NCBI RefSeq assembly: GCF_025716945.1
Contig: NZ_JAOVZT010000003.1
Location: forward strand, 2,032-66,031
Source: Geodermatophilus sp. YIM 151500
Lineage (GTDB): Bacteria > Actinomycetota > Actinomycetes > Mycobacteriales > Geodermatophilaceae
Length of the DNA: 64,000 nucleotides
Reading direction: 5' to 3'
The first letter of the stretch is position 1; each line of letters starts with the position of its first letter. Below, in pieces: positions 5,449 through 45,860 of the stretch. The translations under genes were made by a program, and so were the position numbers. The notes below the pieces were generated by a model. It was not told the DNA's origin and searched no databases. It saw only the letters and a list, made by a program, of their open reading frames with translations.

Positions 5449-6512
5449 CCGATCCGCACACCGGCGCCGACGCCCACGCGACCGTCCGCCGCGTCCTGCT
5501 GGCCGTGCACACCGGCCGGCGGGACATCGTCGACCTGGCCCGCACCTCGGCCGCCCGGCTCAGGCGCGACGGGATCGCCGTCCGCGTGCTCGAGGAGGAG
5601 GCCTCCCGCCTGGGCATCGAGGGCGCGGAGGTGGTCCCGGCCGGTCCCGGCGCGGCGCACGCGACGGAGATCGTCATGGTGTTCGGCGGCGACGGCACCT
5701 TCCTGCGCGCCGCCGAGCTCGCGCGGTACAGCGACGCCGCCCTGATGGGGGTGAACCTCGGGCGCGTCGGGTTCCTCGCCGAGACCGAGCCGGAGGCCGT
5801 CGAGGAGACGCTCAGCGCGATCGAGCACTGCGAGTACTCGGTGGAGGAACGCCTGGCCATCGAGGTCGACGTGCTGGACGCCGACGGCACGGTGGTCGGC
5901 GGCACCTGGGCGCTCAACGAGGTCTCGCTGGAGAAGACCCAGCAGTCGCGCGTGCTCGACGTGGTCATCGCCATCGACGGGCGTCCGCTGACCAGCTTCG
6001 GCTGCGACGGGGTCCTGCTCGCCACGCCCACCGGGTCGACCGCGTACGCGTTCTCCGCGGGCGGGCCCGTCGTGTGGCCCGACGTCGAGGCGCTCCTCCT
6101 CGTGCCGACCAACGCGCACGCCCTGTTCGCGCGGCCGCTGGTCACCTCGCCCGACTCGGTGCTCACCGTCGCGGTGCCGACCGACGGCAACCGGGCCCGG
6201 ATCTCCGCCGACGGCCGGCGGGCGGTCGACGTCCCGGTCGGCGGGCGGATCGACGTCCGGCGGGCCGCGCACGCGGTGCGCATCGCCCGGGTGCACGCGT
6301 CGACCTTCGGGGACCGGCTGGTCGCCAAGTTCGGCCTGCCCGTCCGCGGTTTCCGCGACGCGCGCAGCCACGGGCCGGGGCACGAGCTGTTCCCCAGCCG
6401 CAACGTGCTCACCCGCGACGTCGTCACCGGGCCGGTCGCCGACGACGGCCGGGGCTGGGGGAGCGCACCGGCGGAGGAGGTGCGCGGTGCCGGCACGGCC
6501 GACCACGGCTGA
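5445..6512 (+). CDS. nadK: NAD kinase
   Basis: A 355-residue protein that phosphorylates NAD to NADP. GTG 5445 overlaps the tlyA stop (GTGA). Diagnostic motifs are the catalytic GGDGTFLRAAELA near residues 81-93, then NLGRVGFLAE, ALNEVSLEK, and the nucleotide-binding TPTGSTAYAFSAGGPVV. The C-terminus is longer than in many bacterial enzymes and ends in a probably disordered stretch overlapping the recN start. The tlyA-nadK-recN order is conserved in Actinobacteria. Confidence 0.95.
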   Translation: MTDPHTGADAHATVRRVLLAVHTGRRDIVDLARTSAARLRRDGIAVRVLEEEASRLGIEGAEVVPAGPGAAHATEIVMVFGGDGTFLRAAELARYSDAALMGVNLGRVGFLAETEPEAVEETLSAIEHCEYSVEERLAIEVDVLDADGTVVGGTWALNEVSLEKTQQSRVLDVVIAIDGRPLTSFGCDGVLLATPTGSTAYAFSAGGPVVWPDVEALLLVPTNAHALFARPLVTSPDSVLTVAVPTDGNRARISADGRRAVDVPVGGRIDVRRAAHAVRIARVHASTFGDRLVAKFGLPVRGFRDARSHGPGHELFPSRNVLTRDVVTGPVADDGRGWGSAPAEEVRGAGTADHG

Positions 6513-11936: not shown

Positions 11937-12931
11937 TCGACTTCCGCTACCACCTGGTCTCGCTGATCGCCGTCTTCCTGGCGGTGGCCCTCGGGATCGT
12001 CATCGGCACCACCCAGCTCAACGACCCGATCCTCGCCGACATCGAGGCGCAGGTGACCGACCTCGAGCAGGACAAGCGGGCCCTGGAGGACCAGACGCAG
12101 CAGCTGCAGGCCCGGCTGGACACCGCGGACGACTTCGAGCAGTCCGTCGCGCCGGCCCTGGTCGAGGGCGCCCTCACCGACCGCAGCGTGCTGCTGCTGA
12201 CCACCAACGAGGCCGTCGGCACCGAGATCGTCGACGAGGTGGCCTCGCTCGTGGCGCAGGCCGGCGGCAGCGTCACCGGCACGCTGCGGCTGCAGCCCGA
12301 GTACAGCGACCCGGCGACCGCGGCCGCGCTGCAGAGCTACGTCACCGGACCGGGGCTGCCCCCGGGCGTGCAGCTGCCGGAGACCGACGACGCCGGCCGG
12401 TTGGTCGCCGCGCTGCTCTCCCAGGTCCTGATGGCCCCCGCCGACGCCGGGTCGCCGGAGCAGAACACCGCGCCGGAGGCGGAGGCCGGGGGGTCCCCGG
12501 CCGGCCAGCCGAGCACCGCCGACGTCTCGTCGGTGGTCGCCGGCCTCTCCGCGCTCGACGTGCTGACCCAGGAGAGCGCGTCGGTGGCCCCGGCCGACTT
12601 CGCCGTCGTCCTCACCGCCGACGCCTTCACCGCCGACGCCGAGGAGCGCAACGGGACGCTCGTCGAGCTGGTCACCGCCCTGGACGCCGCGGGCTCGGGT
12701 GCGGTGGTCGCCGGCGACGCCGCGTCCGCCGCCGAGAGCGGCCTGGTGGGCGCCATCCGCGCCGACCCGACCCTCTCCGCCGCGATCTCCACGGTCGACA
12801 ACGTCGGCACCTCCGCGGGACGGATCAGCACCGTCCTGGCCCTCGGCCGCGAGGCGGAGGGCACTTCGGGCAAGTACGGCACGGGGGAGGACGCGCAGCC
12901 GGTGCCCCCGGTGTCGCCCGCCGCCCCGTGA
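11933..12931 (+). CDS. steB: SteB/MctB-like copper transporter family protein
   Basis: A 332-residue protein from GTG 11933, overlapping steA. Its first residues DFRYHLVSLIAVFLAVALG form one N-terminal transmembrane helix, typical of the family. A coiled coil follows (IEAQVTDLEQDKRALEDQTQ, residues about 36-60), then an extracytoplasmic alpha/beta domain. The M. tuberculosis homologue Rv1698 (MctB) has been linked to copper tolerance. The corynebacterial SteB instead partners SteA in the divisome. Coupling to steA here favours the second role. Confidence 0.88.
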   Translation: MIDFRYHLVSLIAVFLAVALGIVIGTTQLNDPILADIEAQVTDLEQDKRALEDQTQQLQARLDTADDFEQSVAPALVEGALTDRSVLLLTTNEAVGTEIVDEVASLVAQAGGSVTGTLRLQPEYSDPATAAALQSYVTGPGLPPGVQLPETDDAGRLVAALLSQVLMAPADAGSPEQNTAPEAEAGGSPAGQPSTADVSSVVAGLSALDVLTQESASVAPADFAVVLTADAFTADAEERNGTLVELVTALDAAGSGAVVAGDAASAAESGLVGAIRADPTLSAAISTVDNVGTSAGRISTVLALGREAEGTSGKYGTGEDAQPVPPVSPAAP

Positions 12932-43403: not shown

Positions 43404-43786
43404 CGCAGGCGCTCCCCGCCATCCATCCGGCACCCGGGGCGCCCGGCGGCCGGGCGCTCCGGGTCACCATGGTCGACCTAGCTCCCGGACGTGGCGCGGT
43501 CGCCGGACTGCTGCCAGAGCGCCCGCACGGTGTCGTTGATGGGCGGGCCGGTGAACTGGATCTCGTGCCCGCGCCTTCGACCACCGCCCGCGAGGCGCCG
43601 ATCCGCTCCGCCAGGTCGTCGCAGATGGCGTCGAAGAGCCGGGACCGTGCGCCCTCGGCCGCGCCGACGGTCTCGGCTTCGCCGAGCAGGCGACCCACGT
43701 CCTCGTGGTCGGCTCGGGCGGCCGCGCGGGCGCCAACCACGCCTCCACCGCGCACCGCGGCACGGAGCAGCTGCTGCCACGGCCGG
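43404..43786 (-). other. Degenerate coding stretch downstream of the anti-sigma gene
   Basis: Reverse-strand frames contain protein-like fragments without usable starts: RADHEDVGRLLGEAETVG with RSRLFDAICDDLAERIGASR (faintly hemerythrin-like), and in another frame GHEIQFTGPPINDTVRALWQ followed by a stop near 43480. They look like eroded remains of one or two genes. I cannot name the family with confidence. Confidence 0.4.
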
Positions 43787-44059
43787 TCAGCGTCGTCGTG
43801 CCTCGAGGAACGTGGCCATCAGCCGGTCGCGCAGCAGGGGGTCGACGTCGGCGACGTCGGCGGTGGTGAGCCGTCCGGCCAGCCGCACCACCGTGCGCCA
43901 CTGCGCGAGGGCCGTGCGGCAGCCCTCGCAGCGTTCGAGGTGCTGCTCGATGCGCCGGCGCTCCTCGACCGGCAGGGTGCCGTCGAGGTACGCGGTGAGC
44001 TGCTCGACGAGGTCGACGCACCGTTCCTCGGTGCCGCCCGTGCCGGGCTCGCCGTTCAC
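43787..44059 (-). CDS. Zinc-finger (zf-HC2) anti-sigma factor
   Basis: A 90-residue protein from GTG 44059. The HC2 zinc-binding anti-sigma motif is RRRIEQHLERCEGCRTALAQ (His-x3-Cys-x2-Cys), preceded by VDLVEQLTAYLDGTLPVEER. There is no transmembrane helix, so it is a soluble ZAS-type domain protein. Such proteins sequester a cognate ECF sigma factor and usually overlap its gene. Here the overlapping upstream gene (GTGA) is instead the MFS-sigma fusion, so the anti-sigma's target may be that fused domain. Confidence 0.88.
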   Translation of the reverse strand: MNGEPGTGGTEERCVDLVEQLTAYLDGTLPVEERRRIEQHLERCEGCRTALAQWRTVVRLAGRLTTADVADVDPLLRDRLMATFLEARRR

Positions 44060-45624
44060 GTGGCACGCCTCCCCTCGAGATGCCGCGCCACCCGGGAGCG
44101 CACCAGACCGCGTGCCGCATGCAGACGCAGCTGCTCGTCCCGGGGACTGATACCGAGCGCTCGGGCCACGTCACCGGGTGGTCGGCCCTCGACGTCGCGC
44201 AGGACCATGACCCGCCGGAGCTCGACCGGCATCTCCATGAGCGCGGTGCGGACCTCGGCGGCCGCTTCCGCGTCGTGCACCTCCGTGCCGAGCCCCGCCC
44301 AGGCGGCGGGCGGTACCGCCCAGTGACCCGGCCAGTCCGGATCGTCGTCGGGCAGGAACCGATCCGGCGGGAACGTGGGCGCCGCCTCCTCGTGCAGCGG
44401 TGCAGCGACGGGAGCCGTCGGTGCCGTGGGCAGGACCGTGATGACGAGGACGCCGCAGACGACCGCCACCGCGACGAACAGCCAGCCCGCGTCGCCGACG
44501 CCCACCCGGTCGCTGACGAACCCGACGAGGAGCGCGAACGGCACGAAGGTGAGCCAGGTGAGCGTGCCGACGCCGGAGGCGACTCCGGCGCGGACCGCCG
44601 ACGGCACGGCGTCGTGCAGCCGTCGCGTGACCGGGATCCCCACCGCGACGACGACGGCGGTGAGCACCACCTGCGCGCCGACCACCACTGCCGGTGCGGT
44701 GCTCCCCACCAGGACGAGCGTGCAGGCGACCATCACGCCGGCCAGCGCGGCCGCCCCGCTCCGCCGCGTCACCCAGCGCTGCGAACCGAGCAGTCCGCCC
44801 AGCCCCAGGGCAGAAGTCAGGCCGGCCCAGTGCGGCCCGTACCAGATCGCCGGGACGGCGAGGGCGACCAGCCAGAGGGGACCGAACTCCAGCATCCCCT
44901 GCATCGTCAGCGCGGCCGCGATCGTCAGCGCGATCACGGGCCGCAGCCGGCCCCGCTGCAGGAGCGTGCGGTAGGTGGTGGCGAGCTGGCGTCGGAGCGG
45001 GACGGACTCCTCGGCCCGGTGCAGCCGCGGCTCGCGGAACAGGCACACCGCCACCCCCGCCGCGACCAGGAGCGGGACGGTCAGGAAGTACGTGACCCGC
45101 AGGGAGAGGAGTTCGGCGAGGACTCCGCCGGTCAGCGCGCTCGTGACGAGCGCGACGCTCTCGACGACCCGTACCCGGCCGATGACCCGTTCGAAGTCAT
45201 CGCTCGAGCCGGTCTCCTCGAGGAGCGTGTCGTAGACGACCGACTCGAACGTCCCCGACTGCATGGCGAAGAAGATGCCGAGGAAGAACGCCGACACCAT
45301 GTACGTCGCCACGTTCGGACTGGCCCCGCCGATCGCGGCACTCAGCGCCGCGGCGAGGCAGGCCAGCACCAGGACGCCGCGACGGCTCCACCGGTCGGCG
45401 AGCACGCCCGACGGCACCTCGAAGACGGGCACGACCACCGAGTACACGGCCGCCATCAGGCCCACGCCGGCCGCGTCGAAGCCGATGCCGGTCATGAACA
45501 GCTTCTCGATGGGCACCCACAGCGCGAGGTTCTGCAGGAACGCGGCCGCGTACAACGGCGCGAGCCGCCGCCGGAGTGCCCGGCGGGTCGGCACCGCCAC
45601 CCGCTTCTCCGCCGCCACGGCCAC
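44056..45624 (-). CDS. MFS transporter fused to the C-terminal half of an ECF sigma factor
   Basis: A 522-residue protein from GTG 45624 (GGGGAGG 6 bp upstream); ATG/GTG further up to 45738 adds a poor basic extension. Residues about 10-405 are a 12-helix MFS transporter with motif A in GVLADRWSRRGVL. From about residue 412 the sequence turns soluble: FPPDRFLPDDDPDWPGHWAV is the inter-domain linker typical of an ECF sigma group, and EVRTALMEMPVELRRVMVLR, DVEGRPPGDVARALGISPRD is sigma region 4 with its HTH. Region 2 (-10 binding) is absent. The stop overlaps the anti-sigma GTG. Either a functional membrane-tethered -35-binding or decoy domain, or a deletion chimera. Confidence 0.85.
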   Translation of the reverse strand: MAVAAEKRVAVPTRRALRRRLAPLYAAAFLQNLALWVPIEKLFMTGIGFDAAGVGLMAAVYSVVVPVFEVPSGVLADRWSRRGVLVLACLAAALSAAIGGASPNVATYMVSAFFLGIFFAMQSGTFESVVYDTLLEETGSSDDFERVIGRVRVVESVALVTSALTGGVLAELLSLRVTYFLTVPLLVAAGVAVCLFREPRLHRAEESVPLRRQLATTYRTLLQRGRLRPVIALTIAAALTMQGMLEFGPLWLVALAVPAIWYGPHWAGLTSALGLGGLLGSQRWVTRRSGAAALAGVMVACTLVLVGSTAPAVVVGAQVVLTAVVVAVGIPVTRRLHDAVPSAVRAGVASGVGTLTWLTFVPFALLVGFVSDRVGVGDAGWLFVAVAVVCGVLVITVLPTAPTAPVAAPLHEEAAPTFPPDRFLPDDDPDWPGHWAVPPAAWAGLGTEVHDAEAAAEVRTALMEMPVELRRVMVLRDVEGRPPGDVARALGISPRDEQLRLHAARGLVRSRVARHLEGRRAT

Positions 45625-45860
45625 GGCACGCCTCCCCGCCCTCGGCCGGAGCGCTGATCGACGCTCCACGGGCCCGCCGGCCGCACGCGGCATCGACCGG
45701 CCCGCACCGTTTCGACCGCATCCCGGCACCGAAGTCATCGCCCGGCACCGGGAGGTCGCCGCCCAGCTCCGGGAGGTGGCCGTGGCGCTCCCGGGACGAC
45801 CCGCCCGCCGGAGTCGGGGTCACCGGCCTGGGCGGGTGGCCGGCGGGCCGAGGCGCGCCC

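Follow-up and report, generated by a model that had tools for sequence, protein, structure and literature searches.

An MFS transporter fused to sigma region 4 beside a zinc anti-sigma gene in Geodermatophilus and Promicromonospora: a possible sigma decoy

The window analysed here, a 64,000-nt stretch of DNA from Geodermatophilus sp. YIM 151500 (contig NZ_JAOVZT010000003.1, positions 2,032 to 66,031; its genome is labelled G000), carries on its minus strand a gene in which an MFS transporter is continued, in the same frame, by the linker and region 4 (sigma4) of an ECF sigma factor, followed by an overlapping gene for a zf-HC2 anti-sigma factor (ZAS). Residue numbers of the fusion follow a 560-aa numbering that begins at the ATG at 45738. 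The features, in window coordinates, are:

44056-45624, minus strand: gene of the MFS::sigma4 fusion (522 aa if translated from the GTG at 45624); the same fusion occurs in Promicromonospora panici
44428-45624, minus strand: MFS transporter part, from the MFS_1 profile, hydropathy and the helix pattern of a low-confidence model
44380-44427, minus strand: junction, residues about 438-453, where the MFS tail passes into sigma-derived linker, from the alignment with P. panici
44284-44379, minus strand: linker between sigma regions 2 and 4, containing DDPDWPGHW, a signature of the group
44071-44280, minus strand: residues 487-556, sigma region 4, which the model folds with confidence (pLDDT about 70-84)
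44110-44139, minus strand: recognition helix DEQLRLHAAR, residues 534-543
44056-44059, minus strand: GTGA overlap, with the TGA stop of the fusion and the GTG start of the ZAS gene, likewise in P. panici
43787-44059, minus strand: ZAS gene, 90 aa, zf-HC2 with E 1e-11 (Pfam)

By mechanical call, the open reading frame of the fusion extends over 44056-45738 on the minus strand as a single uninterrupted frame of 560 aa. Since GGGGAGG lies just 5' of the GTG at 45624 and clear similarity to the P. panici protein begins only about there, we prefer this GTG to the ATG at 45738 as the likelier start. Pfam assigns residues 62-393 to MFS_1 (E 1.5e-22) and residues 495-543 to Sigma70_r4_2 (E 5.8e-7, better than the Pfam cut-off), with no match to Sigma70_r2 in the fusion; the P. 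panici fusion likewise lacks region 2 (sigma2). A preliminary description of this locus had reported one frame joining a 12-helix-type MFS protein to the linker and region 4 of a sigma factor, with region 2 missing and a junction at about 44390, and all of this is borne out, the proposed junction falling inside the interval given above. The P. panici junction aligns with that of the window and has 6 extra residues. The transporter assignment draws on the MFS_1 profile together with a 12-helix pattern, seen in hydropathy and in the helices of the low-confidence model, and the sigma4 fold is indicated both by Pfam and by the best PDB sequence matches, which are chains of Mycobacterium tuberculosis SigE (E 2e-5). 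In MFS proteins, motif A after helix 2 places the C-terminus of a 12-helix protein in the cytoplasm. A motif-A-like GVLADRWSRRG is located past the second helix here, so the C-terminus of the fusion should be cytoplasmic if the protein has 12 helices. Sigma4 is the best part of the predicted model, most of the linker (434-489) is disordered, and confidence is low for the MFS part; a fold search with this whole-protein model, built on a shallow alignment, gave no match at E <= 0.001. By Pfam, the gene upstream of the fusion encodes a glycoside hydrolase family 65 protein, and a mycothiol-S-transferase family gene converges on the fusion/ZAS pair from the opposite side. Between the latter and the ZAS gene (43404-43786), broken frames without a Pfam match look, by eye, like a gene remnant.

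The ZAS protein keeps its zinc ligands, C14 and H40-x3-C44-x2-C47 (a CHCC site), and so displays the class I ZAS signature of Hx3Cx2C with an upstream Cys/His; a membrane segment is not apparent. Its D26 (in AYLDGT) is the equivalent of RseA D11, and the P. panici ZAS also retains both this aspartate and the zinc ligands. The GTGA overlap of the fusion with the anti-sigma gene, pointed out previously, is present and identical in P. panici. The best structural match of the predicted ZAS model is weak (E 0.22), and is RslA of 3HUG, the solved structure of a ZAS bound to isolated sigma4, in which the two co-purify; in surface plasmon resonance, isolated SigL sigma4 failed to bind RslA, for which self-association was blamed (PMC2877774).

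A pattern scan of 84,980 species, with one genome per species, recovered the same MFS::sigma4 fusion in P. panici (L034), 61% identical over the protein and about 65% identical in the MFS part; junction and overlap are as in the window, and the ZAS proteins are related. The domain order, which the preliminary description had suggested looking for in related genomes, is therefore found in a second genus, and the breakpoint is not confined to this locus. We considered an assembly artefact or a private deletion, both of which the P. panici copy rules out; because the same fusion occurs there, it is beyond chance. No third fusion was found in about 1,600 whole genomes, so that two members are known (1 of 115 genomes in the family of the window, 1 of 222 in that of P. 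panici), and wider order and class searches returned MFS relatives without fused sigma4. In separate trees, the window and P. panici are sisters for MFS (100/100), sigma4 (100/99) and ZAS (99/92), which indicates that the module moved as a unit, and its patchy occurrence combined with high similarity suggests, from sequence comparison, spread by horizontal transfer. A plasmid origin was also considered, and tblastn against plasmids gave no match.

Between the two fusions, dN/dS is 0.32 for MFS, 0.45 for linker plus sigma4 and 0.46 for ZAS, values that are rough because high GC and codon bias compress dS; for linker plus sigma4, nonsynonymous and synonymous change differ at p about 0.001. Both fusion domains thus look to be under purifying selection, and on these rough ratios sigma4 and ZAS appear constrained to a similar degree. 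This bears on the proposal that the fusion is a relic, in which a deletion joined two frames and left the transporter as the only working part, with the sigma4 tail and ZAS carried along as passengers. Such a deletion would be easy from the MFS-ECF-ZAS order seen in Kribbella monticola, sigma4 has a long branch and is conserved less than any other part, and ECF remnants occur elsewhere (in genome G145 and, by eye, at locus L082). We nevertheless consider a relic unlikely, as in both genera, at that MFS divergence, the frames of tail and ZAS are still open and under constraint, and the zinc ligands, contact residues and GTGA overlap are all kept. The simple deletion offered earlier as an alternative probably does explain the origin, given the K. 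monticola order, but its product has been kept and looks constrained.

The residues retained in sigma4 differ between its recognition helix and the remainder of the domain. In all 29 full-length ECFs of the same group, our comparison set, the recognition helix reads Q-R-x-L-L-H-R at the invariant positions, and the equivalents of RpoE R149, D150 and R178 are invariant too. The corresponding helix positions are E-Q-x-R-L-H-A in the window and E-Q-x-L-L-G-Q in P. panici, so that the equivalents of R171 and R176 (Q536 and A541 in the window), which we take to read the -35 element in RpoE, are lost in both fusions, while those of R149, D150 and R178 (the last being R543 in the window) are kept in both. 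The window retains 2 of 6 invariant positions in the recognition helix versus 11 of 13 elsewhere (Fisher p 0.046, marginal), and P. panici 2 of 6 versus 10 of 13 (p 0.13); these are not independent tests, as the two fusions share ancestry. In RpoE/RseA, R149 and R178 of sigma4 are coupled to RseA D11, forming the contact between sigma4 and anti-sigma factor, and RseA D11H abolishes RseA activity; both arginines touch the -35 region as well (PMC7406223), and their retention is therefore not specific to anti-sigma binding. Taken together, the residue pattern suggests that DNA reading has been lost and the anti-sigma face retained. The -35-binding function attributed to the domain in the preliminary description is accordingly unlikely, the recognition-helix arginines being invariant in every full-length relative and gone from both fusions.

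The same loss counts against a split sigma factor, in which the fused sigma4 would work with a separate sigma2 protein, perhaps after proteolytic release. Two-subunit sigma factors exist, an example being SigO-RsoA of Bacillus subtilis (cited in PMC8103513). However, no sigma2-only gene was found adjoining the fusion, and all 27 genomic sigma2 copies lie in frames of at least 177 aa (sigma4, by a group-specific profile, was not detected in all of them). We consider this arrangement very improbable.

The MFS, ECF and ZAS genes are combined in several ways among relatives. The order ECF-ZAS-MFS is found in nine genomes, comprising eight of one genus (g123, family f34) and G057, and MFS-ECF-ZAS in K. 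monticola; the fusions stand as MFS::sigma4, ZAS in the window and as MFS::sigma4, ZAS, SDR in P. panici, and in several genomes the MFS gene has no detected ECF or ZAS alongside. Genome G668 has an intact full-length ECF followed by MFS::ZAS in one open frame (L115 2556-4380), which is, on its sequence, a putative membrane-tethered anti-sigma factor made from a transporter. Genome G145 (L090 5541-8053) has a sigma4-only ORF without sigma2, followed in turn by a frameshifted MFS::ZAS and an SDR gene. An SDR-family oxidoreductase thus lies 3' of ZAS in both P. panici (L112 14221-14949) and G145 (L090 7388-8053); a similar gene was not found next to the ZAS of the window. The repeated reshuffling of MFS, ECF and ZAS parts argues for a functional link, and the covalent MFS::ZAS of G668 suggests contact between MFS and ZAS. 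A single sigma2 loss shared with G145 is unsupported, since the G145 MFS groups with f32 genomes and not with the fusions, and the loss in G145 looks independent of the window's fusion. Derivation of the fused sigma4 from an ECF of the K. monticola type is likewise unsupported by the sigma4 tree, where the full-length ECFs nearest to the fusions, on long branches, are in G1100, G1059 and G246, whose ECF-ZAS pairs have no MFS of the same family alongside. In G246, a degenerate ECF-like protein is encoded directly 3' of the ECF-ZAS pair (L113 6880-7450). In genome G750, an apparent C-terminal ECF remnant can be seen by eye 5' of a ZAS plus MFS pair (L082 about 5600-5740).

An ECF-type promoter, TGTAACG-N17-GACTT, lies 5' of related MFS genes in three f32 genomes (L080-L082), with a variant 5' of the K. 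monticola MFS (shuffle expectation 0.05-0.25); it was not found upstream at either fusion. By eye, an MFS-only branch (L083, L084, L085, L088, L089, L111) has GGGAACGTTCCC or a similar palindrome 5' of the MFS gene and a TetR-like gene oriented away, as if TetR had replaced control by ECF and ZAS.

These data lead us to favour, at about even odds, a model in which the fusion is a transporter with a cytoplasmic sigma4-decoy tail that docks ZAS, and not a sigma factor. In this model, the retired sigma4 tail would mimic a sigma factor and offer a docking site to the soluble zinc anti-sigma protein that is translated together with it. With ZAS docked on the tail, a zinc- or thiol-sensitive protein would sit at the cytoplasmic face of the transporter; as its most likely output, and with less assurance, capture and release of ZAS may couple the redox or zinc state of the cell to transport. 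We infer that a deletion removed the MFS stop and sigma2 from an MFS-ECF-ZAS array like that of K. monticola, after which the fused module would have spread by horizontal transfer. The decoy is also supported by G668 and, with a frameshift, G145, lineages in which ZAS has itself been joined to the MFS C-terminus. The earlier idea that the transporter exposes, on its cytoplasmic side, a domain able to bind anti-sigma factor agrees with the occurrence of the fusion in two genera, the purifying selection and the retained R149/R178-D11 residues; the part of it concerned with -35 binding is unlikely to hold.

A broader and more tentative reading, unlikely in our judgement, is that the whole ECF/soluble-ZAS group has the MFS protein as its membrane sensor or partner, and that the window's module has dropped transcription in favour of post-translational transporter control. 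Here the MFS::sigma4 and MFS::ZAS joins would expose a direct transporter/anti-sigma complex, and the zinc/thiol anti-sigma protein docked on the sigma4 decoy would control the transporter after translation.

The docking proposed in the decoy model could also serve a partner switch, in which the fused sigma4, as an anti-anti-sigma factor, competes for ZAS and frees a full-length ECF according to the presence or state of the transporter. PhyR, a known sigma mimic, does so for EcfG (PMC8999054). In the genome of the window, two ECFs of the group are encoded in full length. One, C11, has its own ZAS; the other, C15 (about 12120-12731 of its contig; L173 8949-9740), lacks a ZAS within about 9 kb, which makes it a candidate client. 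Yet full-length ECFs of the group are absent from P. panici and G145 (best matches about 3e-18 and 8e-18, compared with 1e-60 in the window's genome), and co-evolution ties anti-sigma factors to their ECF group (PMC7406223). Because P. panici lacks such an ECF, a general role in partner switching is unlikely; such switching is possible in the window's strain, whereas P. panici has no obvious client. The suggestion that the fusion tunes free anti-sigma factor therefore fails as a general account, since neither P. panici nor G145 has such an ECF, and keeps some force where two are present. On balance, we regard partner switching as improbable.

For soluble ZAS proteins without a membrane segment, the signal input is often unknown, and the covalent joining of transporters to sigma or anti-sigma parts points to complexes in which transporter and anti-sigma factor physically associate. 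The fusion further suggests how new regulators may arise, by loss of DNA reading with the inhibitor-binding face kept.

Among known systems, the fusion is not an ECF sigma factor by definition, because region 2, which binds core and the -10 element, is absent. The literature searched, which excluded the main (2021) ECF reclassification, yielded no account of an MFS-sigma4 fusion. Its closest counterparts can be grouped as follows: (i) Pairs of an ECF and a class I ZAS, such as M. tuberculosis SigL-RslA (3HUG) and Streptomyces SigR-RsrA, share the sigma4 fold, the linker, the R149/R178-D11 residues, the CHCC zinc site and the GTGA-coupled gene order; unlike them, the fusion lacks sigma2 and the recognition-helix arginines, and its sigma4 is borne by a transporter. 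(ii) ECF36, ECF48, ECF52, ECF53 and IutY resemble it in having sigma sequence covalently tied to the membrane or to a ZAS (PMC8999054). They are, however, described as working sigma factors with a fused anti-sigma part (PMC8999054), whereas the fusion has lost sigma2 and has a transporter as its membrane part. (iii) In SigO-RsoA of B. subtilis, too, sigma regions 2 and 4 are carried by separate polypeptides, but no sigma2 partner was found here and the recognition helix of the fusion is degenerate. (iv) PhyR of Alphaproteobacteria is likewise a protein whose sigma-like domain is not a sigma factor, as we propose for the domain that would hold ZAS here. PhyR is a soluble response regulator, whereas the fusion has sigma4 only, on an MFS transporter, and Pfam finds MFS and sigma4 and no PhyR-type receiver domain. 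If the decoy model holds, the fusion would, by analogy, work like the sigma mimic PhyR without belonging to the PhyR family.
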